Source of the DNA: Streptomyces sp. McG3
GTDB taxonomy: Bacteria; Actinomycetota; Actinomycetes; Streptomycetales; Streptomycetaceae
Length of the DNA stretch: 56,909 nucleotides
NCBI RefSeq assembly: GCF_018619185.1
Contig: NZ_JAAXYC010000014.1
Span: 1 to 56,909 of the forward strand
Direction of reading: 5' to 3'
The translations under genes and the position numbers were made by a program. This document shows positions 6,140 to 26,091 of the stretch, piece by piece. Position 1 is the first letter of the stretch. Each line of letters starts with the position of its first letter. The notes beneath the pieces were generated by a model. It was not told the origin of the DNA and did no database searches. It saw nothing but the letters and a program-made list of their open reading frames with translations.

Positions 6140-6152
6140 CCTCTCAACCGAA

Positions 6153-7447: not shown

Positions 7448-7505
7448 ACCACGCTTCCCCCCGTTCCCCGCCGTCTGCCTCTTCCCCGTCCCTGGGAGTT
7501 TTGTC

Positions 7506-8837: not shown

Positions 8838-8843
8838 CCCCCG

Positions 8844-9785
8844 ATGACGACGCACACGCTCCGCTCCAAGCGCCGCAGGTCGGCGCTGCGCACAGCGGCC
8901 TTCATGTCGCCGTGGCTGATCGGGTTCTCGGTCTTCTTCGCGTATCCGATGCTCTCGACCGTCTACTTCTCCTTCACGCGGTACGACGGCTTCGGGGCGC
9001 CGGTCTTCAACGGGCTGACCAACTGGACCTACGTCTTCAGCGACTACCCGATGTTCTGGCCGTCGCTGTGGAACACCCTGTGGCTGGTCCTCGTCATGGT
9101 CACCTGCCGGGTCCTGTTCGGCCTCGGCATCGGGATGCTCATCACCAAGATCAAGACGGGGACCGGGCTGTTCCGGACCCTGTTCTACCTGCCCTACCTG
9201 GCCCCTCCGGTCGCCGCGACGCTCGCCTTCGTCTTCCTGCTCAACCCCGGCACCGGGCCCGTCAACGCGATCCTCGGGGACCTGGGGCTGCCGACGCCGG
9301 GCTGGTTCAACGACGCCTCCTGGTCCAAGCCGGCGCTCACCATGCTCGCGGTGTGGGGCATCGGGGACCTGATGGTCATCTTCATGGCCTCGCTGCTGGA
9401 CGTGCCGACCGAGCAGTACGAGGCGGCCGAGCTGGACGGCGCGTCCGCCTGGCAGAAGTTCCGCTTCGTGACCCTGCCGAACATCTCGCCGATCGTGCTG
9501 TTCGCCGTGGTGACGGGCGTCATCCAGGCGATGCAGTACTACACGCAGCCACTCGTCGCCGGAAAGGTCGCCTCAGGAGTCATCGGCGGCTCCGGCCAGT
9601 CCTTCGAACCCGGCTATCCCGACAAGTCGACACTGACGCTCCCGCAGCTCGTCTACAACCTGGGCTTCCAGCGCTTCGACTACGGTGCCGCCTGCGTCGT
9701 CGCACTCGTCCTGTTCGCCCTGGCCATGGCCTTCACCGCGCTGCTGATGCGGGGCCGCAACAACCTGATCCAGGCCGGTGACTGA
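8844..9785 (+). CDS. csnF: Sugar ABC importer permease 1 (MalF type)
   Basis: A 313-residue integral membrane protein with about six hydrophobic segments. The MalF-type cytoplasmic EAA loop is clear (EAAELDGASAWQKFRFVTLP, about 193-212), the contact point for the transport ATPase. It forms the channel with the following permease; the genes are three bases apart. No ATPase is encoded in this operon. Streptomyces sugar importers of this type commonly share the ATPase MsiK encoded elsewhere. Confidence 0.9.
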   Translation: MTTHTLRSKRRRSALRTAAFMSPWLIGFSVFFAYPMLSTVYFSFTRYDGFGAPVFNGLTNWTYVFSDYPMFWPSLWNTLWLVLVMVTCRVLFGLGIGMLITKIKTGTGLFRTLFYLPYLAPPVAATLAFVFLLNPGTGPVNAILGDLGLPTPGWFNDASWSKPALTMLAVWGIGDLMVIFMASLLDVPTEQYEAAELDGASAWQKFRFVTLPNISPIVLFAVVTGVIQAMQYYTQPLVAGKVASGVIGGSGQSFEPGYPDKSTLTLPQLVYNLGFQRFDYGAACVVALVLFALAMAFTALLMRGRNNLIQAGD

Positions 9786-9788
9786 GCC

Positions 9789-10700
9789 ATGACCCAACTC
9801 CTCGAACCCGTGGGCAAGACCGCCGCCTCCTCTCCGGAGCGCTCCGGCCGGACCCCCGCCGCGCGCACCGCCCGCCGCAAGGCGCTGCTGCACTGGATCG
9901 CCGTGCACTCGCTCGGCATCGCCGCCGCGCTCTTCTTCGTGCTGCCGTTCGTCTTCGTGGTGCTGACCTCGCTGATGAGCGACCAGCAGGCGCTGACCCG
10001 CGACCTCACCCCGAACACCTGGGAGTGGGGCAACTACGAGCGGGTCTTCAACACCCCGGGCTTCCTGACCTGGTGGCGCAACACCCTGCTGTACGCGGGC
10101 GTCGGCACCGTCCTGACCGTCGTCTCCTCCGTCCCGGTGGCGTACGCCCTGGCGAAGTTCCGCTTCCGGGGCCGCAAGCTGTCGCTGATGCTCGTCATCT
10201 CGATGATGATGCTGCCGCCGCAGGTCGTCATCATCCCGATGTACCTTTTCTGGGCGAAGCAGATGGACCTGTCCGGCACGTTGTGGCCGCTGATCATCCC
10301 GATGGCCTTCGGCGACGCGTTCTCCATCTTCCTGCTGAGGCAGTTCCTGCTGACCATCCCGAACGAGTACCTGGACGCCGCCAAGGTCGACGGCTGCGGT
10401 GAGTTCCGTACGCTGATGAAGGTCGTCCTGCCGATGGCCAAGCCGGGTATCGCGGCCATCGCCCTCTTCCAGTTCTTCGCCGCCTGGAACGACTACTTCG
10501 GACCACAGATCTACGCCTCCGAGAACCCGGCCGCCTGGACGCTCAGTTACGGCCTCGAATCCTTCAAGGGCGCACACCACACCGACTGGAACCTGACCAT
10601 GGCCGCGACCGTTCTGGTCATGGCCCCCGTGATCGCCGTCTTCTTCTTTGCCCAGAAGGCATTCGTCGAGGGCGTCACACTGACCGGAGTAAAGGGCTGA
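9789..10700 (+). CDS. csnG: Sugar ABC importer permease 2 (MalG type)
   Basis: A 303-residue membrane protein with a basic cytoplasmic N-terminus (about 35 residues) and six predicted helices. The EAA loop reads LDAAKVDGCGEFRTLMKVVL (about 196-215). It starts three bases after the csnF stop and ends one base before the csnH ATG, so translation is tightly coupled. It is the MalG-type partner of csnF. Confidence 0.9.
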   Translation: MTQLLEPVGKTAASSPERSGRTPAARTARRKALLHWIAVHSLGIAAALFFVLPFVFVVLTSLMSDQQALTRDLTPNTWEWGNYERVFNTPGFLTWWRNTLLYAGVGTVLTVVSSVPVAYALAKFRFRGRKLSLMLVISMMMLPPQVVIIPMYLFWAKQMDLSGTLWPLIIPMAFGDAFSIFLLRQFLLTIPNEYLDAAKVDGCGEFRTLMKVVLPMAKPGIAAIALFQFFAAWNDYFGPQIYASENPAAWTLSYGLESFKGAHHTDWNLTMAATVLVMAPVIAVFFFAQKAFVEGVTLTGVKG

Positions 10701-10701
10701 C

Positions 10702-11967
10702 ATGAAGCTCGCAGTAGTGGGTGGCGGGTCCACCTACACCCCTGAACTGATCGACGGATTCGCCCGGCTGCGGGACACGCTGCCGATCGAGGAGCTGGTG
10801 CTCGTCGATCCGGCGGCCGACCGCCTGGACCTGGTGGGAGGTCTCGCCCGGCGGATCTTCGCCAAGCAGGACCACGCCGGGAGGATCACGACCACCACCG
10901 ACATCGACGCGGGCGTCGCCGACGCCGACGCGGTCCTGCTCCAGCTGCGCGTCGGCGGACAGGCCGCGCGCAACCAGGACGAGACCTGGCCGCTGGAGTG
11001 CGGCTGCGTCGGCCAGGAGACCACCGGCGCCGGCGGCCTCGCCAAGGCCCTGCGTACCGTGCCGGTCGTCCTGGACATCGCCGAGCGGGTCCGCCGCGCC
11101 AACCCGGACGCCTGGATCATCGACTTCACCAACCCGGTCGGCATCGTCACCCGCGCGCTGCTCCAGGCCGGGCACAAGGCCGTCGGCCTGTGCAATGTGG
11201 CGATCGGCTTCCAGCGGAAATTCGCCCGGCTGCTGGACGTCAACCCCTCCGAGGTGCACCTCGACCACGTCGGGCTCAACCACCTGACCTGGGAACTGGG
11301 GGTCCGCCTGGGCGGCCCGGACGGCGAGAACGTCCTGCCCAGGCTGCTCGCCGAGCACGGCGACACCATCGCCGACGACCTGCGCATGCCCCGCCAGGTC
11401 GTCGACCGGCTCGGCGTCGTCCCCTCCTACTACCTGCGCTACTTCTACTCCCACGACGAGGTGGTCAGGGAGCTCGGCACCAAGCCGTCCCGGGCCGCCG
11501 AGGTCGCGGCGATGGAGAAGGAACTGCTCGCGATGTACGGCGACCCGACGCTGGACGAGAAGCCCGAGCTGCTCGCCAAGCGCGGCGGCGCGTTCTACTC
11601 CGAGGCGGCCGTGGACCTGGCGGCCTCCCTGCTGGGCAACGGCGGCTCCCCGGTCCAGGTGGTCAACACGTACAACAACGGGACTCTGCCGTTCCTCCCG
11701 GACGACGCGGTGATCGAGGTCCAGGCCCGGGTCGGGCACGACGGCGCGACACCGCTGGCCGTGCCGGCGCTGGACCCGCTGTACGCCGGTCTGATCGCCA
11801 ACGTGACGGCGTACGAGGACCTCGCCCTGGAAGCCGCGCTGCGCGGCGGCCGGGACCGGGTCTTCAAGGCGCTCCTCGCCCACCCGCTGATCGGCCAGTA
11901 CGACTACGCCGAGGGCCTCACCGACCGGCTGATCGCGCACAACCGGGAGCACCTTTCGTGGGCGTGA
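10702..11967 (+). CDS. csnH: GH4 family glycosidase (6-phospho-beta-glucosidase type)
   Basis: A 421-residue cytoplasmic enzyme of the NAD+- and divalent-metal-dependent GH4 family. The start MKLAVVGGGSTYTPEL is the nucleotide-binding loop; IIDFTNPVGIV, the metal-binding Cys in VGLCNVAIG and the His in DHVGLNHLTWE are the family's catalytic landmarks. The length is normal. In the csn pathway it would cleave imported, possibly phosphorylated, glucosamine oligosaccharides made available by the adjacent kinase. The linkage and phosphorylation requirement cannot be read from sequence. Confidence 0.88.
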   Translation: MKLAVVGGGSTYTPELIDGFARLRDTLPIEELVLVDPAADRLDLVGGLARRIFAKQDHAGRITTTTDIDAGVADADAVLLQLRVGGQAARNQDETWPLECGCVGQETTGAGGLAKALRTVPVVLDIAERVRRANPDAWIIDFTNPVGIVTRALLQAGHKAVGLCNVAIGFQRKFARLLDVNPSEVHLDHVGLNHLTWELGVRLGGPDGENVLPRLLAEHGDTIADDLRMPRQVVDRLGVVPSYYLRYFYSHDEVVRELGTKPSRAAEVAAMEKELLAMYGDPTLDEKPELLAKRGGAFYSEAAVDLAASLLGNGGSPVQVVNTYNNGTLPFLPDDAVIEVQARVGHDGATPLAVPALDPLYAGLIANVTAYEDLALEAALRGGRDRVFKALLAHPLIGQYDYAEGLTDRLIAHNREHLSWA

Positions 11968-13332: not shown

Positions 13333-14721
13333 GTGACACACCCGCCGAGCGGCGGCAGGCAGACGCTGCGCACGCCGGATCCGGTGTCCGCGCACGCCGG
13401 CGTGGACGCACAGCGCCGCACCACGTGGGCCGCGCAGGCGGAGCGCCTGCGCGCCGTGGCGACGACCGAGCCCGGCCGGCTCCAGATCATCGGGGCCGTC
13501 CTGGCCCTGCTGGTCGTGGCGTTCGGCGCGGTGACCACCCTGGAGATCTCGTCGCGGGCCTCGTCGGCCGACGACGTGGTCAGCCGCAGCCAGCCGCTCA
13601 GCGCCGACGCGGCGGACATCTACCGCTTCCTGGCGGACGCGGACACGACGGCGGCCAGTGGGTTCCTCGCGGGTGCGCAGGAGCCCGAGGCCGTGCACCA
13701 GCAGTACCGGAAGGACATCGAGGAGGCGGCCCGGCTGCTGGTGAAGGCGTCGGGGAGCACCGACTCCGACAGCGCGTCCAGCCGTGAGATAGCCACCCTC
13801 AACAAGCTGCTCCCGGTCTACACGGGCCTGATCGAGCGCGCCCGCGCCAACAACCGCCAGGGCCTGCCGCTGGGCGGCGCCTATCTCCGGTACGCGAACC
13901 AGAAGATGACCGGCGAGATGCTGCCGGCCGCCGAGCGGCTGTACGCGGCGGAGACGGGCCGGCTGGAGACGGACTCGGCCGACGCCCGGCAGTGGCCCCT
14001 CCTGTCGCTCGGCGCCGGGATTCTGGTGCTCGGCGCGCTGGGGTGGATGCAGCGGCGGACCTACCGCCGGACGAACCGGGTGCTGAACCACGGGCTGCTG
14101 GCGGCGACGGCCGCCGCCTCGGTGGTGGTGCTCTGGCTGGCCGTGGGGCACGCGGTGGCCCGTACGGAGCTGCGGTCGGCGATGGTGCACGGTCAGGCGT
14201 CCCTGGACGTGCTCAACGACGCGCGGATCAACTCCCTGAAGGCGCGCGCCAACGAGAACCTCACCCTGGTGGCGCGCGGTGCGGTGCTGACCCCCGACGG
14301 CTCCGCCGACCAGTACGAGGCGGACTACACCACGGGGATGAAGGCGTTGAAGGACCGGTTGGAGAAGGCCGACCGGCTCGCGGACGACGAGACCGGCAAC
14401 GCGCCGGTCCTCGACGCGACCGAGGACGTGGCCCAGTGGCAGGCCCGCCACCGCGAGGCCCGCGCCACGGACGACCGCGGCGACTACGACGGCGCCCTGG
14501 AGCAGATCATCGGGACCGAGGGCTCCACCGGGCAAGCCTTCCAGCGGGTGGACGCCGCGCTGGAGAAGGCGCTCGCCCATGAGCAGGGCGAGTTCACCGC
14601 GGCGGCGAAGAACGGGCGGGGGGCCCTGCGGGGCCTGCCGGTCGGCGCCGCGGCGCTGGCGGTCCTGGGGGCCGCCGCCGTGATCGTCGGGGTCAACCGC
14701 AGGCTCTCGGAGTACCGGTGA
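13333..14721 (+). CDS. glnX: GlnX-like four-helix membrane sensor protein
   Basis: A 462-residue membrane protein; the GTG at 13333 is preceded by GGGGGAGG. Four hydrophobic segments: about 51-72 (IIGAVLALLVVAFGAVTTLE), about 222-240, about 256-276 and about 434-454. They enclose two predominantly helical extracytoplasmic regions (about 75-220 and 280-430) like four-helix-bundle receptor domains. Position just upstream of a GlnH-like binding protein and a PknG kinase matches mycobacterial GlnX, which links GlnH to PknG across the membrane and has similar length. No kinase or HAMP domain is present. Identification rests on topology and context more than on sequence similarity. Confidence 0.7.
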   Translation: MTHPPSGGRQTLRTPDPVSAHAGVDAQRRTTWAAQAERLRAVATTEPGRLQIIGAVLALLVVAFGAVTTLEISSRASSADDVVSRSQPLSADAADIYRFLADADTTAASGFLAGAQEPEAVHQQYRKDIEEAARLLVKASGSTDSDSASSREIATLNKLLPVYTGLIERARANNRQGLPLGGAYLRYANQKMTGEMLPAAERLYAAETGRLETDSADARQWPLLSLGAGILVLGALGWMQRRTYRRTNRVLNHGLLAATAAASVVVLWLAVGHAVARTELRSAMVHGQASLDVLNDARINSLKARANENLTLVARGAVLTPDGSADQYEADYTTGMKALKDRLEKADRLADDETGNAPVLDATEDVAQWQARHREARATDDRGDYDGALEQIIGTEGSTGQAFQRVDAALEKALAHEQGEFTAAAKNGRGALRGLPVGAAALAVLGAAAVIVGVNRRLSEYR

Positions 14722-14732
14722 GAGGGGCAGCG

Positions 14733-15770
14733 ATGAGCAGGTCGAAGGAGCGTCCCGCACGCGGCGGCCTGCGCGGCTGGGGCGGCGTGGCGGGAATGGC
14801 GGCGGCGTGCGCGGTGACCGCGGCGGTCACCCTGCTGCCGCTGGCCCACCACAGCGGCGGGGCGGCCGGAGCGGATGCCCCGGGCGGCGGAGCGGTGGCG
14901 GCCGACCAGGCACGGGCCGAGGAGTGCACCGAGCCGGAGGCGAGCCTGCCCGCGTCGAGCGCCGACGGGCCCAGCATCGAGAAGATCAAGGAGCGCGGCA
15001 AGCTGATCGCGGGCGTCGACCAGAACAGCTTCCGCTGGGGCTACCGCAATCCGGAGGCCCGGGAGCTGGAGGGGTTCGACATCGATCTGGTGCGGGCCAT
15101 CGCCAAGGACGTCCTGGGCGACCCGGACGCGGTGATCTTCCGCGCGATCCCCACCAACCAGCGCATCGCCGCACTGGAGAGGGACCGGGTCGACGTCGTC
15201 GTGCGGACGATGACGATCAACTGCAAGCGGCTGGAACAGGTTTCCTTCTCCACCGCCTACTTCCAGGCCGGGCAGCAGGTGCTCGCCCCGAAGGGGTCGA
15301 CGATCACCGGATACGACAAGTCGCTGAAGGGCAAGCGGGTCTGCTCCGCCGAGGGCTCCACGGCGTACGAGGCGCTGGAGAAGCAGTCGTTCGGGGCGCT
15401 CTACAAGGACGACTTCGACGGCACCGAGCGCGACCCGGACCTGCTGACCGTGCCCAACCAGCTGGACTGCCTGGTGCGGCTCCAGCTCGGCGAGGTCGAC
15501 GCGGTCGTCACGGACAACGCCCTGGCGGCCGGCCAGGCGGCGCAGGACCCGGCGGTGGAGCTCAAGGGGAAGGCCCCGTTCACCACCGAGTACTACGGCG
15601 TCGCGACGAAGAAGGGCGCCGACGACCTGGTGGCCCGGGTGAACAAGGTCCTCGTCGACTACCGGGCGGGCGGCGACGACAGCCCCTGGATGACGTCGTA
15701 CCGCAAGTGGCTGGCGGCCGGGCTGCCCGGCATAGCGGGCCCGCCCGCCCCCAAGTACCGAGGCGACTGA
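14733..15770 (+). CDS. glnH: GlnH-like extracytoplasmic amino-acid-binding protein
   Basis: A 345-residue protein with an N-terminal hydrophobic export/anchor segment (about 15-42), an Ala/Gly-rich spacer, then an SBP family 3 domain: KIKERGKLIAGVDQNSFRWG, ELEGFDIDLVRAIAKDVLGD, then DRVDVVVRTMTINCKRLEQV and GEVDAVVTDNALA. A Cys lies inside the hydrophobic segment but the flanking residues are not a good lipobox, so anchoring by lipid or by helix is open. ATG 14733 is preferred over the GTG overlapping the glnX stop because of the GAGGGG before it. No permease is encoded nearby, which supports a sensor rather than a transport role, as for mycobacterial GlnH (aspartate/glutamate sensing). Confidence 0.78.
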   Translation: MSRSKERPARGGLRGWGGVAGMAAACAVTAAVTLLPLAHHSGGAAGADAPGGGAVAADQARAEECTEPEASLPASSADGPSIEKIKERGKLIAGVDQNSFRWGYRNPEARELEGFDIDLVRAIAKDVLGDPDAVIFRAIPTNQRIAALERDRVDVVVRTMTINCKRLEQVSFSTAYFQAGQQVLAPKGSTITGYDKSLKGKRVCSAEGSTAYEALEKQSFGALYKDDFDGTERDPDLLTVPNQLDCLVRLQLGEVDAVVTDNALAAGQAAQDPAVELKGKAPFTTEYYGVATKKGADDLVARVNKVLVDYRAGGDDSPWMTSYRKWLAAGLPGIAGPPAPKYRGD

Positions 15771-15888
15771 CCCGGAGCGCGCCCACGCGCACGGGCCGGG
15801 GCGAGCGGACCGATACAGGGCGAGCAGACCGAGACAGACCGATCCCGCCGGGCCCACCGGCCCGGCGGGGAGAGCGGAGAGGTGATCG

Positions 15889-17259
15889 ATGGGCGTCGCG
15901 GGATCCTTCCCCAGCTTCGCGGGGAGGCCCCCCGGCCCGGTCATGGACCGGGAGGAGGCGGACCGTGCGCTGGCCCGGCTCGGTGCGGAGCACGAGGCCA
16001 TCGAGACCTCGCTCCTCGCGCTCCAGGACCATGCCGGCCGCCGGCTCCTGGAGGGTGCCGAGCTGACCGGCGTCACCCGGGAGCGCTGGGCCACGACCGA
16101 ACAGTCGATCACCCTGCTGTGGGGCTATTTCGACGCGTACGCCGGCGCCCTGTCCCAGGCCCGGGAGATCCGTGCGCGGCGGCGCCACCCGAACCGGGAG
16201 GACCTGACCGCGCTGACCGAGCTGCTGCGTGGCGAGGCGGTCACCGTCGCCAACCCGGGTGCGGTGCCCCCGCCTTCGGTCGCCGGTCCGGCCAGGCTCT
16301 CCGAGCGGTTCTCCCTCCAGGAGCTGGTCGCCCGGATGAACGAGCTGTACGCCAGGTCCCTGGACATGGTCGTCTCCTCCGACTCCGTGTGGTCGGCGCT
16401 GCCCGCCCGGATCGACCTGCTCGCCGCCGAGCTGCACCGCACGCGTTCGCTGGCGCACTCCGTGGGGGTGCGGCCCGGTGAGCATCCGGCCGGGGACGAT
16501 CTGGCGGAGATCACCGAGGAGCTGGCCACGCTGCGGGTGCAGGTGATCTCCGACCCGCTGGCGTTCTGGCTGCCGGGGCCCGGCAGCGCCGCACCGGGCG
16601 GCGGCCGTCCCGACACCTCGCGCTACGACCGGGCGGCCCGTGCCCTGGAGGACGTGCGGCGGGAGATCGAGGCGGTGCTCACGGTCCGGCAGGACGCCGA
16701 GGCGCGGCTGGTGCGGCTGCGGGACGTGCTCTCGCGGGCCGACCGCACCCTGACGGAGGCACGGGCGGCGCGCGGCGAGGTGCTGGCCAAGATCGCCGCC
16801 TCCGAGGTGCCCGCGGTCAGCGGCCCGCCGACCGCCCTCCAGGAGCGGCTGGCGGCGGCGTCGGACCACCGCAGGTACGCCCAGTGGCACCGGCTGTCGC
16901 CGCTGCTGGAGTCGCTGGAGCAGGAGGCCGAGGACGAACTGCTGCGCGCCCGGGAGTCGCTGACCTCGGTGACGGCCCCGCTGGCGGTCCGCGCGGAGCT
17001 GCGCGGCCGGCTCGACGCGTACAAGGCGAAAGTGGCCCGGCACGGCCTGGCGGAGGATCCGGTGCTGATCGAGCGGTACGACGCGGCGCGCCGCATGCTG
17101 TGGAGTGCGCCGTGCGATCTGCGGGTCGCCGAGCAGGCCGTCCTGCGCTACCAGCACGCGGTCGCGGAGACGCTGACACCGCGCCGGCCCGACGGACCGC
17201 AGGACCGGCGGGACACCGGCACCGGCACCGGCACCGGCGAAGAGGGGGAGACACGATGA
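15889..17259 (+). CDS. Uncharacterised coiled-coil protein of the PknG cluster
   Basis: A 456-residue protein without recognised domains. It is soluble and strongly helical, with heptad-like stretches at about 18-90, 135-185 and 245-420 (LEDVRREIEAVLTVRQDAEARLVRLRD is one, shown in part). A Pro/Gly-rich spacer occurs near 228-243, and the C-terminus ends in a (Gly-Thr)n run encoded by GGCACC repeats. The start follows GAGAGG. Its stop overlaps the pknG start as ATGA, so it is coupled to the kinase. By position it may be an adaptor between GlnX and PknG or a substrate; this is inference. M. tuberculosis pknG operons, as I recall them, lack this gene. Confidence 0.8.
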   Translation: MGVAGSFPSFAGRPPGPVMDREEADRALARLGAEHEAIETSLLALQDHAGRRLLEGAELTGVTRERWATTEQSITLLWGYFDAYAGALSQAREIRARRRHPNREDLTALTELLRGEAVTVANPGAVPPPSVAGPARLSERFSLQELVARMNELYARSLDMVVSSDSVWSALPARIDLLAAELHRTRSLAHSVGVRPGEHPAGDDLAEITEELATLRVQVISDPLAFWLPGPGSAAPGGGRPDTSRYDRAARALEDVRREIEAVLTVRQDAEARLVRLRDVLSRADRTLTEARAARGEVLAKIAASEVPAVSGPPTALQERLAAASDHRRYAQWHRLSPLLESLEQEAEDELLRARESLTSVTAPLAVRAELRGRLDAYKAKVARHGLAEDPVLIERYDAARRMLWSAPCDLRVAEQAVLRYQHAVAETLTPRRPDGPQDRRDTGTGTGTGEEGETR

Positions 17260-20102
17260 GTACGCAGTGCCAGCGCCCCGCGTGCGAGGGGAACTACGAG
17301 GACATGGGCGGCGGTGAGACGTACTGCGACACCTGCGGTCTGGCTCCGGTCGTCTCGCCGACGGGCATGGTCTCCTCGCCGCCGACCGGGATCGCCGGGG
17401 GCGGCCGGGCGAGCAGCCGGGACAGCTCGTCGTCCCGCTCCAGCTCCCGCGCCTCCGGACGCGCCTCGTCCCGTTCGTCGACCTCGCGCCGCTCGGTCTC
17501 CGGCCGGCTGTCGCGCTCGCTGTCCGGGGCGTCCACCTCCCGTTCGGTCTCGGTGCGCTCCTCCGGCTCGACATCGGCGGCCTCGGCCCGGGGGCGGCTC
17601 GGCGTCGGTCTGGTGGAGGTCCCGGACGTGCCCCGGCCCGATCCGCGCACGGCGGTGATGGAGAACCCGGAGGTGCCCGAGCGCAAGCGGTTCTGCTCCC
17701 GTTCGGACTGCGGTGCGCCGGTGGGCCGTTCGCGCGGTGAGCGGCCGGGCCGCACCGAGGGGTTCTGCACCAAGTGCGGCCATCCGTACTCCTTCGTGCC
17801 GAAGCTGACCGGCGGCGACATCGTGCACGGCCAGTACGAGGTCGTGGGCTGTCTGGCGCACGGCGGGCTCGGCTGGGTCTATCTGGCGGTGGACCGGGCC
17901 GTTTCGGACCGCTGGGTGGTCCTCAAGGGCCTGTTGGACACCGGCGACCAGGACGCGATGGCCGCCGCGATCTCCGAGCGCCGCTTCCTCGCCGAGATCG
18001 AGCACTCCAACATCGTCCGGATCTACAACTTCGTCGAACACCTGGACCAGCGGACCGGCTCGCTCGACGGTTACATCGTGATGGAGTACGTCGGCGGCAA
18101 GGCGCTCAAGGAGATCGCCAACGAACGCCGCACCCCGGCCGGGAAGCGCGACCCGCTGCCGGTCGAACAGGCCTGCGCATACGGGATCGAGGCGCTGGAG
18201 GCGCTCGGTCATCTGCACAGCCGCAACCTCCTCTACTGCGACTTCAAGGTCGACAACGCGATCCAGACCGAGGACCAGCTCAAGCTGATCGACATGGGCG
18301 CGGTGCGCCGGATGGACGACGAGGAGTCGGCCATCTACGGCACGGTCGGCTACCAGGCCCCCGAGGTCGCGGAAGTGGGCCCGTCGGTGGCCTCCGACCT
18401 CTACACGGTGGCCCGGACGCTGGCGGTCCTCACCTTCGACTTCCAGGGGTACACGAACGTCTTCGTGGACTCGCTGCCGGACCCGGACAACATCGAGGTG
18501 TTCCGGACCTACGAGTCGTTCTACCGGCTGCTGGTGCGGGCCACGGACCCGGACCCGGCCCGCCGGTTCGCCTCCGCCGCGGAGATGGCCGAGCAGCTGA
18601 CGGGGGTGCTGCGGGAGGTCGTGGCACTCCAGACGGGTCGGCCGCGCCCCGCTCTGTCGACGCTGTTCGGCGCGGAACTACGGCTGATCGACACCGAGTT
18701 GTTCGCGCAGCAGACGGACGACGTCTCGCGGCTGGGCGGCCGGGAAACCGGCTCCGGGCGTGGCGGGCTCCGGGGCCGCCGCAAGGGCCGCGGCCTTCCG
18801 CCGTCCGGCGTTCCGGCGCAGGGCGGCACCTGGCAGCCCCACGGCGGCGCGACTCCGGTCGCGCCGGGGGCCGTGACGTCCGCGGTGGCCGGGGCGCTGC
18901 CGGTGGGCACCCAGCCGCCCGGTCCTGCGGGGGCCCGACCGTCGGGTCCGGCGGGGGCCTCTCCGCTGGCCGCGCCGCCGACCCATGTGCGGGGCCCTGC
19001 GCAGGGCGGTGCCCCGCTCGCCTACGCTCCCCCGGCACAGGCTCCGCTCCCGGCGCCCCGGTCGGCCGAGCCGGCCCCGGTGGCGACGTACGGGCCGTAC
19101 GTCGCGACCGGACCGTACGGCCCCTTCGGGGCGACCTCCGGGGGTGTCCTGCTCGCCCTGTTCGACACGCGGGCCACGTCACTGGCGCTGCCGGTCCCCC
19201 GGGTCGACGCGATGGACCCGAACGCCGGTTTCCTCGCCGGTCTCATGGCCTCCGCCCCGGCCGAGCTGATCACGGCCCTGCACACGGTGCCGGCCCCCTC
19301 GCTGGAGACCCGGCTGCGGGAGCTGCGGGCCCGGCTGGAGATGCGGGAGCTGGAGTCGGCCGCCCGTGCGCTGACCACCCTGGAGGGTGAACACCCGGAC
19401 GACTGGCGGGTCGTCTGGTATCGCGGCGTCACCTCGCTGGTGACCGGTGACCACGAGACGGCGGCGCTCTCCTTCGACGCGGTCTACGACGCGTTCCCCG
19501 GGGAGATGGCGCCCAAGCTGGCCCTCGGGATCTGTGCGGAGGTGCTGGGTCAGCTGGACAACGCCGCCGAGTACTACCGCCTGGTGTGGGCGACCGACCC
19601 GGGGTTCGTCAGCGCCGCGTTCGGCCTGGCCCGGGTGCAGATCGCCGCCGGTGAGCGGGCCGGGGCGGTGAGCACCCTGGAGTCGGTGCCGGAGGCCTCG
19701 ATCCACTACACGGCGGCGCGGGTCGCCGCCGTCCGGGCGCGGCTGCGCGAGCGCTCGCACCGGGAGCCGCTGCTGGCCGACCTGACGGCCGCCGGCGTCC
19801 AGGTGGCGGCGCTGGCCGCCTTCGGCCTGGACCCGGTGCGTCGCGAGCAGTTGTCGACCGAGGTACTGGGCAAGGCGCTCGACTGGGTACTCTCCGGTAG
19901 TCCCGGTGTCCCGGGGCTGGGCGGACCGGCCGCCGGTTCGTCCGGGGCAGGCAAGCTGCTCGGCGCCGAACTGAACGAGCGGGGGCTGCGGTTCGGGCTG
20001 GAACGCTCGTACCGGATGCTCGCCCGGCTCGCGCAGCGGGGCGACGAGAGGATCGAACTGGTGGAGCGGGCCAACCGTTTCCGCCCCCGGACGTGGGTGT
20101 GA
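17256..20102 (+). CDS. pknG: PknG-type Ser/Thr protein kinase with zinc ribbons and TPR domain
   Basis: A 948-residue soluble kinase, clearly PknG-like but longer than the 750-residue mycobacterial protein. Order: an N-terminal cysteine cluster (C5/C10, C24/C27); a Ser/Arg-rich segment about 51-110; the PknG rubredoxin-like site (C147/C152, C171/C174) followed by HPYSFVPKL; the kinase domain about 190-465 with GGLGWVYLAVD, catalytic lysine K224 (VVLKGL), YCDFKVDN as catalytic loop, LIDMGAVRR in the DFG place and GTVGYQAPE; GVLREVVALQTGRPRP; a Pro/Ala/Gly-rich linker about 510-620; then TPR-like repeats (DDWRVVWYRGVTSLVTGD, FPGEMAPKLALGICAEVLGQ). PknG controls glutamate/TCA metabolism via FHA proteins in Mycobacterium and Corynebacterium. 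The ATGA overlap with the upstream gene fixes the start. Confidence 0.93.
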   Translation: MSTQCQRPACEGNYEDMGGGETYCDTCGLAPVVSPTGMVSSPPTGIAGGGRASSRDSSSSRSSSRASGRASSRSSTSRRSVSGRLSRSLSGASTSRSVSVRSSGSTSAASARGRLGVGLVEVPDVPRPDPRTAVMENPEVPERKRFCSRSDCGAPVGRSRGERPGRTEGFCTKCGHPYSFVPKLTGGDIVHGQYEVVGCLAHGGLGWVYLAVDRAVSDRWVVLKGLLDTGDQDAMAAAISERRFLAEIEHSNIVRIYNFVEHLDQRTGSLDGYIVMEYVGGKALKEIANERRTPAGKRDPLPVEQACAYGIEALEALGHLHSRNLLYCDFKVDNAIQTEDQLKLIDMGAVRRMDDEESAIYGTVGYQAPEVAEVGPSVASDLYTVARTLAVLTFDFQGYTNVFVDSLPDPDNIEVFRTYESFYRLLVRATDPDPARRFASAAEMAEQLTGVLREVVALQTGRPRPALSTLFGAELRLIDTELFAQQTDDVSRLGGRETGSGRGGLRGRRKGRGLPPSGVPAQGGTWQPHGGATPVAPGAVTSAVAGALPVGTQPPGPAGARPSGPAGASPLAAPPTHVRGPAQGGAPLAYAPPAQAPLPAPRSAEPAPVATYGPYVATGPYGPFGATSGGVLLALFDTRATSLALPVPRVDAMDPNAGFLAGLMASAPAELITALHTVPAPSLETRLRELRARLEMRELESAARALTTLEGEHPDDWRVVWYRGVTSLVTGDHETAALSFDAVYDAFPGEMAPKLALGICAEVLGQLDNAAEYYRLVWATDPGFVSAAFGLARVQIAAGERAGAVSTLESVPEASIHYTAARVAAVRARLRERSHREPLLADLTAAGVQVAALAAFGLDPVRREQLSTEVLGKALDWVLSGSPGVPGLGGPAAGSSGAGKLLGAELNERGLRFGLERSYRMLARLAQRGDERIELVERANRFRPRTWV

Positions 20103-20104
20103 AG

Positions 20105-21538
20105 ATGTCACAGAGCCACCAGCAGCCCGCCCTGTCGAGGTGCCCGGGCTGCGAGGAACCGCCGGTTGCGGGCGATCTGTTCTGCGGGGTGTGCGGCTAC
20201 GACCTCTCGGCCGTTCCGGCGCGCCCCGATGACCGGCCGACGATGGCCATCACCGTGCCTCCGGCGGCTCCGGCTGCCGGAGCGGTGCGATGGCCCGCCG
20301 CCGAGGAGACCGACAGCTCGGACGTGCCCGCGCCCGTGGTCCGTCCGGCGGACGTGCCCGGGACGGACTCGGGCGGCAGGCCCCTGGCGGAACCGGACAC
20401 GCCGGACGCGGTGTCCGGGCGGGGCGCGGCGTCGCCGCCCGAGCCGGTGCGGGCGGGCGGCCCGGAGGCCGAGGCCGTCCAGGTGCGCCACGACGACCGG
20501 GCGGACCCGGGCGGTGCGGAGGCCTCCGGTGACTTCGCGCTGGCCGCGCCCGATCCCCGGGCGGCGGAGCATGCCGCCGCGCCCGCGGCCGCGCCCGCCC
20601 CCGGGGCGAAGGTCTGTGTGGCCTGCCACTCCGGCCGGGTGGACCCCGACGGCTACTGCGAGAACTGCGGGCACGCGCAGCCCCGTGAGCGCGACCACAT
20701 GGAGCAGGAGCTCGACGCGGTGGCCGCCGTCAGCGACCGGGGGCTGCGCCACCACCGCAACGAGGACTCCTTCGCGGTGTCCTCCACCGCGCTGCCGGAC
20801 GGCTCGGCCGCCGTCGTCGCGATCGTCTGCGACGGCGTCTCCTCGGCGAGCCGTCCCGACGAGGCCTCGGCCGCCGCCGCGAGCGCCGCCAACGAGGCGC
20901 TGCTGGAGTCCCTGCCGCGCGGTACCCATCCGCAGACGGCGATGCACGAGGCTATCGTCGCCGCGTCCGAGGCGGTCAACGCCCTGGCGCAGGAGCCGAC
21001 CGGGGCGAGGGAGCACGACGCGCACCGCCACCAGAACGCCCCGGCCTGCACCCTGGTCGGCGCGATCATGGCGGGCGGCCTGCTGATCGTCGGCTGGGTC
21101 GGCGACAGCCGCGTCTACTGGGTGCCGGAGGACCGGACCCGGCCGACCGCCCGGCTCACCGAGGACGACTCCTGGGCCGCGCAGATGGTGGCGGCCGGCC
21201 TGATGAACGAGGCGGAGGCGTACGCGGACGAGCGCGCCCACGCCATCACGGGCTGGCTCGGCGCCGACGCGTACGAACTGGAGCCGCACACCGCCGCGTT
21301 CAAGCCGGACCGGCCCGGCCTGGTCGTCGTGTGCACGGACGGCCTGTGGAACTACGCGGAATCCGCCGAGGAGATGGCCGCCGCCGTCCCGGCCGACGCC
21401 CAGGAACAGCCGCTGCGCGCGGCCCAGATGCTCGTCGGGCACGCTCTCGACGGCGGGGGCCACGACAACGTAACAGTGGCGCTTCTGCCGTTCGCCGTAC
21501 GGCCGCAAGGGGCAGGATCGGCCTGCGACACCGTTTGA
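20105..21538 (+). CDS. PP2C-type Ser/Thr phosphatase with N-terminal zinc ribbons
   Basis: A 477-residue cytoplasmic protein. Two zinc-ribbon-like pairs precede the catalytic domain: CPGC...CGVC near residues 13-36 and CVAC...CENC near 175-195, separated by an acidic/Pro-Ala-rich linker. The PP2C domain (about 207-465) has the metal-binding motifs SDRGLRHHRNEDSF, VCDGVSS, GWVGDSRVYW, VCTDGLWNY and GGHDNVTVALL. ATG 20105 lies two bases after the pknG stop; GTG 20093 is an alternative. It is probably the phosphatase opposing PknG. Confidence 0.9.
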   Translation: MSQSHQQPALSRCPGCEEPPVAGDLFCGVCGYDLSAVPARPDDRPTMAITVPPAAPAAGAVRWPAAEETDSSDVPAPVVRPADVPGTDSGGRPLAEPDTPDAVSGRGAASPPEPVRAGGPEAEAVQVRHDDRADPGGAEASGDFALAAPDPRAAEHAAAPAAAPAPGAKVCVACHSGRVDPDGYCENCGHAQPRERDHMEQELDAVAAVSDRGLRHHRNEDSFAVSSTALPDGSAAVVAIVCDGVSSASRPDEASAAAASAANEALLESLPRGTHPQTAMHEAIVAASEAVNALAQEPTGAREHDAHRHQNAPACTLVGAIMAGGLLIVGWVGDSRVYWVPEDRTRPTARLTEDDSWAAQMVAAGLMNEAEAYADERAHAITGWLGADAYELEPHTAAFKPDRPGLVVVCTDGLWNYAESAEEMAAAVPADAQEQPLRAAQMLVGHALDGGGHDNVTVALLPFAVRPQGAGSACDTV

Positions 21539-21627
21539 GCCGGTTCTCCGCCCTTGCCCCGACCCGTGTCAGCCGCCCGCTTCCCCTCTTCACCTGATCC
21601 CCTGTGGAGCCTCAAGGAGCCGACCAG

Positions 21628-22989
21628 ATGGCCAACTTCTCCAAGTCGAACGTGCCGCAGTTCTCCGTCGAGGTGTACCAGAACGAGTTCCTGCCCGAGG
21701 GCGGTCGTGAGGTCAACGCGATCGTCACCGTGACCTCGACCGGCGGCGGCACCACCGGTGGCGTACCGCTGGCGGGTTCGGCGCCGGCGCCCGCGCACGG
21801 GCCGGGGCGGGGTCCCGACGCGGCCGTGGTGCTGATGGTCGACTGCTCGGGCTCGATGGACTACCCGCCGACGAAGATGCGCAACGCGCGCGACGCGACG
21901 GCGGCGGCCATCGACGCCCTGCGCGAGGGCACCCGGTTCGCGGTGGTCGCCGGGACGCATGTGGCCAAGGACGTCTACCCGGGCAACGGGCAGCTCGCGG
22001 TCGCCGACCAGCAGACGAAGGCCCGGGCGAAGGACGCCCTGCGGAAGCTGAGCGCGGGCGGGGGCACCGCGATCGGCACCTGGCTGCGGCTGGCCGACCG
22101 GCTGCTGGGCGCGGCCGAGGTGGGCATCCGGCACGGCATCCTGCTGACCGACGGCCGCAACGAGCACGAGGCGCCCGAGGATCTGCGGGCGGCCCTGGAC
22201 TCCTGCGCCGGCCGGTTCACCTGCGACGCCCGCGGGGTGGGCACCGACTGGGAGGTGAAGGAGGTCACCGGCATCGCCGCCGCCCTCCTCGGCACCGCCG
22301 ACATCGTCGCCGACCCGGCGGGCCTGGCCGCGGACTTCACGCGGATGATGGAGAACGCCATGGGCAAGGAGGTCGCGGACGTGGCGCTGCGGCTCTGGAC
22401 GCCGGTGGGGGTGGAGATCCGGTTCGTGAAGCAGGTCGCACCGACCGTCGCCGACCTGACCGGCCGGCGGACGGAGGCGGGACCCCGGGCCGGGGACTAC
22501 CCGACCGGTTCCTGGGGCGACGAGTCCCGCGACTACCACGTGTGCGTCCTGGTGCCGGAGGCCGGGATCGGCCAGGAGATGCTGGCCGCCCGGGTCTCGC
22601 TGATCCTGCCCGACCCCTCGGGCGCGGGCGCCCCGCAGACGCTGTCGCAGGGGCTCGTACGGGCCGTGTGGACGGACGACATGGTGGCCTCGACCTCGAT
22701 CAATCCGCAGGTCGCGCACTACACGGGTCAGGCGGAACTGGCACAAGTCATCCAGCAGGGTCTGGACGCGCGCAAGTCGGGCGACTTCGACGGCGCGACG
22801 GCGAAGCTGGGCCGTGCGGTGCAGCTGGCGTCGGCGTCCGGGAACCAGGACACTGCGAAACTGCTTTCGAAGGTGGTCGACGTCGTCGATGCCGCGACAG
22901 GTACTGTGCGACTGAAGGCGAAGGTTGCGGAAGCGGACGAGATGACCCTCGAAACGCGCTCCACCAAGACCGTTCGCGTCAAGAAGTAG
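21628..22989 (+). CDS. von Willebrand factor A domain protein of the PknG cluster
   Basis: A 453-residue soluble protein. ATG 21628 is chosen for the AAGGAG upstream. An N-terminal beta segment (FSVEVYQNEFLPEGGREVNAIV) leads into a vWA domain with an intact MIDAS: D72-C-S-G-S76, the Thr in GGGTAIGTW and TDGRNEHE. Beyond about residue 265 are a beta-sandwich-like region and a helical C-terminus of about 100 residues with repeats typical of TPR-like helices (SGDFDGATAKLGRAVQL). No signal peptide or membrane segment. Metal-dependent vWA proteins usually mediate assembly or partner binding, so here it may be a scaffold or target of the kinase/phosphatase pair. Confidence 0.88.
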   Translation: MANFSKSNVPQFSVEVYQNEFLPEGGREVNAIVTVTSTGGGTTGGVPLAGSAPAPAHGPGRGPDAAVVLMVDCSGSMDYPPTKMRNARDATAAAIDALREGTRFAVVAGTHVAKDVYPGNGQLAVADQQTKARAKDALRKLSAGGGTAIGTWLRLADRLLGAAEVGIRHGILLTDGRNEHEAPEDLRAALDSCAGRFTCDARGVGTDWEVKEVTGIAAALLGTADIVADPAGLAADFTRMMENAMGKEVADVALRLWTPVGVEIRFVKQVAPTVADLTGRRTEAGPRAGDYPTGSWGDESRDYHVCVLVPEAGIGQEMLAARVSLILPDPSGAGAPQTLSQGLVRAVWTDDMVASTSINPQVAHYTGQAELAQVIQQGLDARKSGDFDGATAKLGRAVQLASASGNQDTAKLLSKVVDVVDAATGTVRLKAKVAEADEMTLETRSTKTVRVKK

Positions 22990-23120
22990 CACGGCACGGT
23001 CATCGGACGACCGCCGGGCCGTGAGCACAGAGCAACCATACGTATGCGTGGGGCAAGGACGCCCGCGATCGACAGCATGACGGCCCCCGGGGCCGGAAGA
23101 GGAGAGGGGGAAGCGCCGAC

Positions 23121-24551
23121 ATGCCGACCTGCCCGAACGGACACCAGTCGGGTTCCGAGGACTGGTGCGAGGTCTGCGGACACCGCATGGCCACCGGCGG
23201 TGCGCCCGCGGGCGCGGTGCCCCCGCCGCCTCCTCCGCCGCCCGCGCCCGGTTACGGCTACCCGCAGCAGGGTTCCGGCGGTGGCCAGCCCACCATGCAG
23301 GCGGAGCTGTGCCCGCAGTGCCGCACGCCCCGTGAGGCGATGGCGCCGTACTGCGAGGAGTGCCGCTGGAACTTCCTCACCAACACGGCGACCTCCTACA
23401 CCCCGCTGGCCCCGCAGCACGGCACGCCCGGCGGACCTCCGCCCGGCCTCAATCTGCCGCCCGGATTCCAGGCACAGGGGCCCGGCCCCGGCGGACCCGG
23501 TGGCGGGCCCGGTCCTGGCGGACCCGGTGCTCCCGGGGGCCAGGGCGGTCCGCCCGGCGCTCCCCAGCCGCGCGACCCGTTCGACTACCAGGGCTCGCGC
23601 CCCTCGCAGATGAACCGCCCCGCCGAGCCGCTCGCTCCCGAGCAGCACGGCCCGCACGGGAACGGCGGTCCGCACGGGAACGACGGCCGGGGCGGGCCTC
23701 CGCCGCAGGCCTTCCGGCAGGGACCCCCGCCGCCGCCCTCGTTCCAGCAGGGCCCGCCGCCGCAGCAGCAGTCCGGCCCCTCGCCGTTCGAGCCGCAGCA
23801 GTCGGCTCCCTCGCCACACTCGCCGTTCGAACCGCAGCAGTCGGCTCCCTCGCCGTTCGAGCCCCAGCAGGCCTCGCCCTTCGCGCCGCCGCAACAGCAG
23901 CAGCAGTCGGCGCCGCCCGGGCCGCCCCAGCCCTCGGGGCACACCGGCGGCGGGGACGACTGGATGCTGCCGCCGCCCTCCCAGGCCCAGCAGTCACAGC
24001 AATCACAGCCACCGCAGGGGTTCCAGCAGCCCGGCCCCCACCAGGGGCAGGGCCACGGACAGGACCAGGGGCACGGCCAGGACCAGGGCTACGACCAGGG
24101 TCAGCAGCACGGCGGGGTGCCCGGTCAGGGCCGGCCCCAGCAGTCCGCCTCCTGGACCGCCGTGATCGCCCCCGACCGCGCGTACTTCCTCGCGATGATG
24201 CAGCGCAGCGGCCCCGAGGCGACCGGGCTGAACCTGCCCGCGTACTCCCCGGAGCAGCGCCTCCCGCTCACCGGGAGCCAGATCACCATCGGGCGTCGCC
24301 GGCACAGCACCGGCGAGTCCCCCGACGTCGATCTGTCGGTGCCCCCGGAGGACCCGGGCGTCTCGCACCAGCACGCGGTGCTGGTGCAGCAGCCCGACGG
24401 CGGCTGGGCGGTCGTGGACCAGAACTCCACCAACGGCACCACGCTGAACGGCGCCGAGGACCCGATCCAGCCCTACGTCCCCGTACCGCTCCAGGACGGC
24501 GACCAGGTGCACGTCGGGGCGTGGACGACGATCACGGTGCGCCGGGACTGA
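23121..24551 (+). CDS. FHA-domain protein with zinc ribbons and long Pro/Gln-rich linker
   Basis: A 476-residue protein. The N-terminus carries two zinc-ribbon-like pairs: CPNGH...CEVCGHR (residues 4-22) and CPQC...CEEC (about 69-87). Residues about 95-345 are a disordered Pro/Gly/Gln-rich linker with short repeats such as SPFEPQQSAPSP and GQGHGQDQGHGQDQG. The last 110 residues form an FHA phosphothreonine-binding domain: ITIGRRRHS, GVSHQHAVL and DQNSTNGTTLNG. FHA proteins are the classic PknG targets (GarA/OdhI); this one is much larger and lacks their short N-terminal TxxTxxL-type lead as far as I can see. It ends the cluster. Confidence 0.9.
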   Translation: MPTCPNGHQSGSEDWCEVCGHRMATGGAPAGAVPPPPPPPPAPGYGYPQQGSGGGQPTMQAELCPQCRTPREAMAPYCEECRWNFLTNTATSYTPLAPQHGTPGGPPPGLNLPPGFQAQGPGPGGPGGGPGPGGPGAPGGQGGPPGAPQPRDPFDYQGSRPSQMNRPAEPLAPEQHGPHGNGGPHGNDGRGGPPPQAFRQGPPPPPSFQQGPPPQQQSGPSPFEPQQSAPSPHSPFEPQQSAPSPFEPQQASPFAPPQQQQQSAPPGPPQPSGHTGGGDDWMLPPPSQAQQSQQSQPPQGFQQPGPHQGQGHGQDQGHGQDQGYDQGQQHGGVPGQGRPQQSASWTAVIAPDRAYFLAMMQRSGPEATGLNLPAYSPEQRLPLTGSQITIGRRRHSTGESPDVDLSVPPEDPGVSHQHAVLVQQPDGGWAVVDQNSTNGTTLNGAEDPIQPYVPVPLQDGDQVHVGAWTTITVRRD

Positions 24552-24560
24552 CGGGACCGG

Positions 24561-24581
24561 GGCGCCGCGCGGCGCGGCGCC
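24561..24581. terminator. Bidirectional hairpin between convergent genes
   Basis: GGCGCCGCGC and GCGCGGCGCC form a perfect palindrome around one central G. It lies between the FHA stop (24551) and the convergent methyltransferase stop (24582), and can serve transcripts from both sides. Confidence 0.7.
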
Positions 24582-25577
24582 TCACCCGGCGGCGAGCGGC
24601 CAGGTGTACGGGCCCTGCGGGTCATCCAGCCAGGCCCACTGCCGGCCCTGGCCGACCGTGATGCCGTACCTCTCCCGCCGCGGGCGCTCCTCGCGCTCCC
24701 AGAGGGAGAGGGCCTCGTGCGGATCGAGGGTGCCCGCGGTCAGGGTCAGGAGGAACCGGAACAGGTCGTCCCCGGCGACCCGGCGCGGCAGTCCGCCCAG
24801 GTGCGGCAGCACGCCGGGCCCCGGGAGCGCCCCGCGCAGCGGCACGAAGTACGCCGGGGTGTGCAGGAAGTGCCCCTCGGCGCGCGGGCCGTGCTCCGTC
24901 GCGCGGACCTGGAGCAGGACCAGGCCGGTGGCGAGCGGCGCGAGGATACGCGCGCCCGGACGGCACTGTTCCGGCCAGGTCCCCGGTACGGACGGCAGGG
25001 TGCACGTCGCGATGATCCGGTCGTACGGGGCGTGCCGCGGGCAGCCCCGGGCCCCGTCGCCGGTGACCACCGTCGGGTGGTACCCGGCCGCGGCGAGGTG
25101 ACCCCGGGCCGACTCGGTGATCTCCGGGTCGAGGTCGACGCTGGTCACCGCGGAGTCGCCGAGCCGGTGGGCGAGCAGCGCCGCGTTGTAGCCGGGGCCG
25201 GTGCCGATCTCCAGGACCGTGTGCCCGTCCCGTAGGCCGAGGGCGTCGAGCATCAGGGCCATCAGGGACGGCTGGCTGGAGGACGAGACGAGTTCGCCGT
25301 CCTTGAGGCGGGTGGCCAGCGCCCCGTCCGCGTACACCCCGCGCAGCCAGCGGGAGCGCCGTTCGGGGTCGGGGTCCTCGCCCCAGAGGCGCTCGAAGCC
25401 CCGGATTCCGTGCACGTAGTAGAACGGCACGAACAGATGGCGGGGCACCTCGGCGAAGGCCGTGCGCCAGGCGGGGTCGGTGAGTTCGCCCCGCGCGGCG
25501 ATCTCCCGCACGAGGGCTGCCCGCGCCGCGTCGGCCTCGGCGTCGGGCGGGGAGGAGCCTTGCCGGTGTGCACCCAT
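24582..25577 (-). CDS. PCMT-like SAM-dependent methyltransferase
   Basis: A 331-residue cytoplasmic protein. The N-terminal part (WRTAFAEVPRHLFVPFYYV) and SSSSQPSLMALMLDAL followed by the SAM-binding motif VLEIGTGPGYNAALLAHRLG are typical of protein-L-isoaspartate O-methyltransferase relatives; post-motifs VTSVDLDPEI and PYDRIIAT follow. A C-terminal extension of about 120 residues, beyond the normal PCMT length of about 210, is shared by many actinobacterial paralogues used in peptide modification or protein repair. Start ATG 25577 is tentative: the GGAGG upstream is almost touching it. It diverges from the globin gene. Confidence 0.8.
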   Translation of the reverse strand: MGAHRQGSSPPDAEADAARAALVREIAARGELTDPAWRTAFAEVPRHLFVPFYYVHGIRGFERLWGEDPDPERRSRWLRGVYADGALATRLKDGELVSSSSQPSLMALMLDALGLRDGHTVLEIGTGPGYNAALLAHRLGDSAVTSVDLDPEITESARGHLAAAGYHPTVVTGDGARGCPRHAPYDRIIATCTLPSVPGTWPEQCRPGARILAPLATGLVLLQVRATEHGPRAEGHFLHTPAYFVPLRGALPGPGVLPHLGGLPRRVAGDDLFRFLLTLTAGTLDPHEALSLWEREERPRRERYGITVGQGRQWAWLDDPQGPYTWPLAAG

Positions 25578-25686
25578 GCCTCCACTGTCCTGCGCCGGGG
25601 CCGCGCGGGCGAGCGGCCGGGCGGGCTTTTCGGCCCTTGGCCCCCGGACCCCCGTCCTCGGTCGGCGCGTCTGCGACCATGGACGG

Positions 25687-26091
25687 GTGACTGAGATTCC
25701 GCGCGACACGCTTCAGGAGCAGACCTTCTACGAGCAGGTCGGCGGCGAGGCGACCTTCCGGCGCCTGGTCCACCGCTTCTACGAGGGCGTGGCGGGCGAC
25801 GAGCTGCTGCGGCCGATGTATCCGGAGGAGGATCTGGGTCCGGCCGAGGAGCGGTTCGCGCTGTTCCTGATGCAGTACTGGGGCGGCCCGCGCACCTACA
25901 GCGACCACCGGGGTCACCCGCGGCTGCGGATGCGGCACGCGCCGTTCCGGGTGGACCGGGCGGCGCACGACGCCTGGCTCGCCCATATGCGGGTCGCGCT
26001 GGACGAGCTGGGGCTGGCGCCCGAGCACGAGCGGCAGCTGTGGGACTACCTGACCTATGCCGCCGCCTCGATGGTCAACACCGCCGACTGA
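25687..26091 (+). CDS. glbO: Truncated haemoglobin, group II (trHbO)
   Basis: A 134-residue haem protein. Visible family features are TFYEQVGGEATFRRLVHRFY (helices A-B), FLMQYWGGPRTYSDHRGHPR (CD region), the proximal His in LRMRHAPF, and DAWLAHMRVAL with the conserved Trp of helix G. It starts at GTG 25687 with no Shine-Dalgarno sequence, so it may be translated from a leaderless message. trHbO proteins bind O2 and NO and are linked to respiration or oxidative/nitrosative defence. No nearby gene suggests a specific partner. Confidence 0.92.
   Translation: MTEIPRDTLQEQTFYEQVGGEATFRRLVHRFYEGVAGDELLRPMYPEEDLGPAEERFALFLMQYWGGPRTYSDHRGHPRLRMRHAPFRVDRAAHDAWLAHMRVALDELGLAPEHERQLWDYLTYAAASMVNTAD

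Follow-up and report, generated by a model that had tools for sequence, protein, structure and literature searches.

A conserved gene block around pknG, next to GlnX and GlnH relay homologs in Streptomyces, recurs in other actinobacteria

Is the kinase PknG of Streptomyces served only by its known sensor partners, or does it belong to a larger signaling assembly encoded beside it? The question is raised by a 56,909-nucleotide stretch of DNA from Streptomyces sp. McG3 (contig NZ_JAAXYC010000014.1, positions 1 to 56,909 of the forward strand; hereafter the window), whose host genome is 8.7 Mb. Seven genes of the window, all on the plus strand between 13333 and 24551, encode in order a GlnX-family membrane protein, a GlnH-like solute-binding protein, a coiled-coil protein (CC), PknG, a PP2C phosphatase, a von Willebrand factor A (vWA) protein with a metal ion-dependent adhesion site (MIDAS), and a forkhead-associated (FHA) protein (Table 1). 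In mycobacteria and Corynebacterium glutamicum, PknG, the kinase that phosphorylates GarA/OdhI, is under the control of GlnH and GlnX (PMC6069109, PMC9769921, PMC8546545; all papers are cited here from partial texts). The glnX-glnH-pknG operon has been described as conserved, with Streptomyces named, and phosphatase, vWA, FHA, and CC genes go unmentioned in the part of that paper available (PMC6069109). We propose that the locus combines homologs of this relay with a five-gene block, CC-PknG-PP2C-vWA-FHA, and, with moderate confidence, that the products form one membrane-linked kinase–phosphatase complex whose predicted role is to control the phosphorylation state of GarA as well as its own.

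How well is the arrangement conserved? Genome contigs were searched with the vWA protein, and the best 80 of at least 572 relatives were analyzed; vWA is present in these loci by design, because they were chosen by it. Seventy-nine of these loci bear the title Streptomyces and one is [Kitasatospora] papulosa, the closest named relatives being Streptomyces anulatus and its neighbors. All seven genes occur in the same order and on the same strand in 67 of the 80 loci; contig ends truncate another 12, and the remaining one (L059) has no GlnX match. PP2C, vWA, and FHA are found together in all 80. The first-pass annotation had listed the seven genes in this order on one strand, and the family matches and coordinates bear it out.

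Beyond Streptomyces, the PknG_rubred domain matches 30 of 296 genomes in a sample of the phylum (23 above the cut-off), and PknG_TPR matches 90 of 246 genomes in a sample of the class (88 above the cut-off). We take the number of class genomes with PknG as 87, leaving out the fragments in G295 and two weak matches. A full-length vWA is encoded in 55 of the 246 class genomes, and PknG is encoded in all 55; 32 genomes have PknG with no full-length vWA (all 21 of family f3, plus 11 others), and 159 have neither, counts for which the best few candidates were scored per genome, so that distant copies may be missed.

Profiles of the seven proteins were used to score the stretches surrounding 116 PknG loci. 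In the Streptomyces family (f1), 21 of 23 other genomes have all seven genes, one locus being cut by its contig (G439) and one broken (G295). Among the 21 complete loci, pknG falls into two open frames in L150 (G275), possibly through a frameshift or a sequencing error, and the CC score is low in L140. In the broken locus, L208, GlnX, GlnH, PknG, and vWA are in fragments while CC, PP2C, and FHA are open; this could be decay or an assembly error. Family f3 we take to be the mycobacteria and their kin, because the PknG of its locus L094 scores 1405 bits over 683 residues against the solved structure 2pzi (the best score in the window is 559). Here the picture is different: 21 of the 23 loci are GlnX-GlnH-PknG and two are PknG alone, and no CC, PP2C, vWA, or FHA gene was found near PknG in any of the 23 (in three of them the downstream sequence ends within about 1.2 kb). 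In f78 (Nocardiopsis, Thermomonospora, and others), PP2C and FHA accompany PknG in 13 of 17 loci, with GlnX and GlnH downstream of pknG. The block is also present in f7 (Nocardioides), f74, and f95. In f41, which belongs to another class, GlnX and GlnH lie downstream on the opposite strand.

Because GlnX and GlnH are set apart from the block in both f78 and f41, the gene orders point to CC-PknG-PP2C-vWA-FHA as a unit of its own, separable from the sensor genes. The co-occurrence of the genes that follow pknG with pknG itself, proposed as a check on the first-pass annotation, holds in several families, with full-length vWA only in genomes that encode PknG, but in none of f3. A few genomes hold further copies. 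Divergent second CC-PknG-PP2C-vWA-FHA blocks are present in two f79 genomes (L247, L248), and some Streptomyces have a second, distant PknG adjoining a second vWA, with no PP2C or FHA match (L202–L206). By eye, the second PknG copies of L203 and L205 have a four-cysteine N-terminal ribbon and that of L202 a ribbon with wider spacing.

Such predicted N-terminal zinc ribbons, on PknG, PP2C, FHA, and GarA, are a new observation. Across aligned representatives, PknG has one, PP2C has two, and FHA has one or two. The FHA ribbon cysteines are kept in 77–82 of 136 aligned rows, the remainder being mostly gaps. Using a looser cysteine pattern, we compared the PknG ribbon with the presence of at least one block gene nearby in 101 of the 116 loci, leaving out L208 (broken PknG), eight loci without a kinase anchor, one that is cut, and five without downstream data. 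Both are present in 65 loci and neither in 32; two have only the ribbon (L147, L192) and two only the block (L202, L160). By eye, the ribbon of L202 has a spacing outside the pattern, and L160 has half a ribbon. Fisher p-values were set aside as evidence, since related genomes are not independent. On trees of PknG, the block label needs four changes among 62 sequences (the f79 rows L189, L191, and L195 left out, and loci lacking downstream data scored as having no block) and five among 55 sequences (those three rows included, rows with no data set apart, and L182, L170, and L194 left out, the last two for unread bases).

Family f79 is the most informative, since it has two PknG clades. The first is linked to the block and has ribbons throughout (the half ribbon of L160 included). 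In the second, the deep rows L191, L195, and L189 have both block and ribbon, and L192 has a ribbon with no block; the idea that this clade is wholly free of the block was dropped once L189, L191, and L195 entered the tree. Nested within it is a nine-row clade (support 100/100) with no ribbon in any row, no block in seven, and no data in two. This pattern suggests one joint loss of block and ribbon inside a family. A joint loss of ribbon and vWA in one genus of f78 was also considered and rejected, as the sequences of L117, L122, and L142 do carry ribbons.

Where is the substrate? The cluster FHA protein scores 24.3 bits against the OdhI equivalog NF041660 (cut-off 200), and we reject it as GarA/OdhI; its 37.3 bits against TagH (TIGR03354, cut-off 120.25) are likewise below threshold. 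A GarA gene lies elsewhere in the host genome (L217, G000:C116:6262-6594; 190 bits, slightly short of the 200-bit cut-off), and its product has the ETTS motif with an N-terminal zinc ribbon immediately before it. Since the cluster FHA is not GarA and GarA with its ETTS lies elsewhere, a candidate reader and a candidate substrate are both encoded. The GarA ribbon is present in all 13 sequences read from PknG genomes of f1, f7, f74, f78, and f79 (broken in G295) and in none of the five read from f3 and f99.

The layout and residues of the block are informative as well. The CC stop and the pknG start overlap through ATGA, and pknG and PP2C are 2 nt apart; the gaps are wider between glnH and CC (118 nt), PP2C and vWA (89 nt), and vWA and FHA (131 nt). 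PknG consists of a zinc ribbon, a Ser/Arg-rich linker, rubredoxin, kinase, and TPR domains, in this order, and matches 2pzi with an E-value of 2.4e-166. Among 201 aligned rows it keeps the ATP lysine in 188, the catalytic Asp in 191, the Asn in 189, and the DFG-type Asp in 190, the other rows being mostly gaps. The metal-binding Asp positions of PP2C are kept in 132–137 of 139 rows and the MIDAS residues D-S-S-T-D of vWA, which has a full-length solved relative (PDB 4fx5, E-value 2.2e-144), in 137–139 of 141. The FHA protein has two N-terminal Cys-rich ribbons, a Pro/Gln-rich linker, and a C-terminal FHA domain whose phosphothreonine-binding residues G-R, S-H, and N-G are kept in 104–108 of 136 rows, the rest being nearly all gaps. 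The FHA motif is also stated in PMC1262709, again in partial text. CC is likely a scaffold. Its AlphaFold2 model (mean predicted local distance difference test score 91.2) is nearly all-helical, with long helices and a few short strands. A Pfam scan gave no match for CC, structure comparison gave no convincing solved relative, and no second genomic copy of its conserved C-terminal part was found; homologs occur in Streptomyces, Nocardiopsis, Actinomadura, and others.

Table 1. Positions of the seven genes, predicted zinc ribbons, and hairpins in the window (gene starts are the best starts as read from the sequence)
Feature	Position	Strand	Details
GlnX-family signal transduction membrane protein, 462 aa	13333-14721	+	GTG start; NF058618 479.1 bits, cut-off 250
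GlnH-like solute-binding protein, 345 aa	14733-15770	+	ATG start; SBP_bac_3 82.6 bits
Hairpin, glnH-CC gap	15844-15869	+	11 bp
CC, helical coiled-coil protein, 456 aa	15889-17259	+	ATG start; AlphaFold2 model
PknG, 948 aa	17256-20102	+	ATG start; PknG_rubred, Pkinase, PknG_TPR
PknG N-terminal zinc ribbon	17268-17336	+	Cys 5/10/24/27, in 125-133 of 201 aligned rows
PP2C phosphatase, 477 aa	20105-21538	+	ATG start; PP2C_2 51.2 bits
PP2C zinc ribbon 1	20141-20194	+	Cys 13/16/27/30, in 121 of 139 aligned rows
PP2C zinc ribbon 2	20615-20668	+	Cys 171/174/185/188, in 128-129 of 139 aligned rows
vWA protein, complete MIDAS and VWA_3_C tail, 453 aa	21628-22989	+	ATG start; VWA_2/VWA_3; VWA_3_C 81.3 bits
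FHA protein, 476 aa	23121-24551	+	ATG start; FHA 57.1 bits
Hairpin after FHA, at the end of the convergent gene	24559-24583	+	11 bp

The three relay genes had been read as homologs of GlnH, GlnX, and PknG, and the matches to NF058618, 6h1u, and the PknG domains support this. GlnX has four hydrophobic segments by eye, in agreement with the four-helix membrane protein placed first in the cluster; it falls below the narrower equivalog NF041460 (194, cut-off 780) and has no match in a Pfam scan. GlnH is, as described earlier, an SBP family 3 protein without permeases, for no permease gene lies between 13333 and 24551. Its best PDB match is 6h1u, “Probable glutamine-binding lipoprotein GlnH” (E-value 3.4e-47), the Mycobacterium tuberculosis structure (PMC6069109). 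From an alignment to 6h1u, with ligand contacts taken from the partial text of that paper, R147, T162, R169, and D250 of the pocket are kept in the window, S164 is replaced by Thr (a residue that 16 of the 21 f3 loci also have), and W232 by Gln. At this last position, Gln is found in all 68 named loci whose GlnH is readable and in 20 of 21 f1 loci, and Trp in 21 of 21 f3 loci. W232 of the M. tuberculosis protein touches the ligand side chain (PMC6069109). Because this contact is replaced, Asp/Glu sensing, which figures in the checks proposed with the first-pass annotation, is not a safe assumption here. No lipobox pattern was found in the 67 Streptomyces GlnH proteins readable by script (L080 has a lipobox-like stretch by eye); lipobox-like motifs, as read from the sequence, are present in GlnH of other families.

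What might these proteins do together? That they form one complex is supported by the linkage of the block in several families, the 67 seven-gene loci, and the restriction of full-length vWA to PknG genomes; by the CC-pknG overlap, the 2-nt gap after pknG, and the kept active-site and ligand residues; by the separability of the sensor genes, the ribbon distribution, and the joint loss in f79; and by the presence in this genome of a GarA that has both the ribbon and ETTS, together with the function of the relay in mycobacteria and C. glutamicum. We infer the following interactions. GlnH would bind a ligand from outside the cell, possibly an acidic amino acid and possibly a different one, and GlnX would relay the signal to the TPR domain of PknG. 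PknG would phosphorylate its own Ser/Thr-rich linker and the ETTS site of GarA, the FHA protein would bind a phosphorylated partner, and PP2C would reset the phosphorylation state, while vWA and CC might hold the parts together. The zinc ribbons of PknG, PP2C, FHA, and GarA are possible docking modules. The earlier proposal that a phosphatase, an FHA reader, and a vWA protein join the relay stands in that these genes adjoin pknG in several families with their residues kept; the cluster FHA, though, is not GarA/OdhI.

Several observations weigh against such a complex. Eleven PknG genomes outside f3 show no full-length vWA (in some, the match is partial or the contig is cut). No CC was found in the f7, f74, and f95 loci, apart from a match of 33 bits in L179. 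A PP2C-vWA-FHA trio of f79, whose PP2C keeps its ribbon, has no nearby PknG match in L246, L249, and L250, which argues that the trio can stand apart. Since the block label needs only four or five changes on the trees, the agreement of ribbon and block reflects few independent events, and L147 and L192 keep the ribbon with no block. Of 11 GarA read from PknG-less genomes, 10 likewise have the ribbon (in an additional one, L242, the pattern gave no match and the sequence is unread), so the GarA ribbon is not specific to the complex. As a mark of PknG signaling it was therefore rejected, and it is likely old, being present in most GarA read. Finally, with a hairpin between glnH and CC and the three wider gaps, a single operon for all seven genes is unproven; in f78 and f41, moreover, the sensor genes are located elsewhere.

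An alternative is two neighboring systems: a plain GlnH-GlnX-PknG-GarA relay and a merely co-regulated PP2C-vWA-FHA module, with or without CC, that has targets of its own, e.g., in the envelope or morphogenesis. The f79 trio, the separation of sensor genes from block in f78 and f41, and the gaps and hairpins between genes would all fit. However, full-length vWA is found in none of the 159 PknG-less class genomes, CC and pknG overlap, and the ribbon on PknG itself tracks the block. We consider two systems unlikely, though they are the strongest of the alternatives.

A second alternative takes its cue from TerY-P, a triad of vWA, PP2C, and Ser/Thr kinase; to our knowledge, no sensor relay is known for it. 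In actinobacteria, a triad of zinc-ribbon kinase, PP2C, and vWA occurs in GAP1-N2 GTPase systems, according to the partial text of Kaur et al. (2020, PMC7159879), and is the nearest precedent for the block. Might PknG have been recruited as the kinase of such a conflict or stress triad, acting against phage or damage? The domain trio is identical and the three genes are adjacent here. But GlnX and GlnH sensors accompany PknG, as do an FHA reader and CC, and no GTPase family was seen among the flanking proteins scanned, a subset of the flanking open frames. PP2C, vWA, and FHA have no match in PADLOC (whether its library holds TerY-P models is unchecked), and the matches of the kinase to PD-T4-6, mad6, PglW, and similar models are confined to its kinase domain. 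The locus is also syntenic in the Streptomyces loci and genomes examined, unlike patchy defense islands. A conflict role is rather improbable, more so than two separate systems. Least plausible by far is a purely historical neighborhood of genes adjoining by descent: actinobacterial gene order can persist, but block order is kept across families despite rearranged sensor genes, block and ribbon are lost jointly inside f79, and GlnX, GlnH, PknG, and vWA are all broken together in G295.

Two other comparisons help to place a kinase–phosphatase complex built on the relay. The threonine phosphorylation pathway of type VI secretion, PpkA-PppA-Fha, has the same write-erase-read logic of kinase, PP2C, and FHA; it differs in that the cluster FHA is below the TagH cut-off and no secretion genes were seen among the neighbors scanned. 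The GlnH-GlnX-PknG-GarA/OdhI relay is closer, with a homologous sensor protein, membrane protein, and PknG (rubredoxin, kinase, TPR) and a GarA in the genome; the differences here are the CC, PP2C, vWA, and FHA genes adjoining pknG, the ribbons on PknG and GarA, and a GlnH in which Gln replaces the pocket Trp and no lipobox was recognized. The phosphatase that acts on OdhI in C. glutamicum is Ppp, which the available part of PMC9769921 does not place in the glnX-glnH-pknG operon.

We view the locus as a widespread extension of the known relay, and apparently an undescribed one: no publication on PknG beside PP2C, vWA, FHA, or CC was found by title and start of abstract, a search that figures and subscription papers lie outside. 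The arrangement, earlier called little described in Streptomyces, is in fact general to many actinobacteria and no Streptomyces novelty. PknG has been much studied, but in lineages without the block. Because the block adjoins PknG in several families and in no f3 locus examined, some components may be missing from the pathway as textbooks present it. Should the block prove to be part of PknG signaling, Streptomyces would allow direct tests of the phosphatase, reader, and scaffold that this signaling has lacked, and amino-acid sensing would be linked to the central carbon metabolism of antibiotic producers. In Saccharopolyspora erythraea, erythromycin rose twofold with a phosphoablative GarA (PMC12321487, partial text). 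The ribbon pattern offers a specific docking hypothesis, open to point mutants. It is tempting to speculate, quite tentatively, that the mycobacterial relay is what remains of a larger complex docked through ribbons, with kinase, phosphatase, FHA reader, and GarA on a vWA/CC scaffold, and that the block disappeared from the mycobacterial lineage together with the ribbons of PknG and GarA.

The hairpin in the glnH-CC gap, which like the zinc ribbons is absent from the first-pass annotation, is a possible attenuator or processing site; hairpins of at least 9 bp occur there in 12 of 67 relatives, compared with 2 of 67 shuffles. A scan of the window found no T-run terminator and no sigma-70-type promoter. 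The hairpin earlier said to close the cluster is present as a stem, but its energy is no better than that of shuffled sequences (z = -0.86). It is nonetheless a possible terminator: repeats of at least 8 bp lie 3′ of FHA in 22 of 74 relative loci and 2 of 74 shuffled controls. This hairpin overlaps the end of a convergent gene for a PCMT-type protein methyltransferase (24582-25709, minus strand). Upstream of the cluster (586-11967) are genes for a GH84 beta-N-acetylglucosaminidase, a ROK regulator, a solute-binding protein with two permeases, and a GH4 glycosidase, a set that resembles an uptake cluster for sugars or amino sugars.

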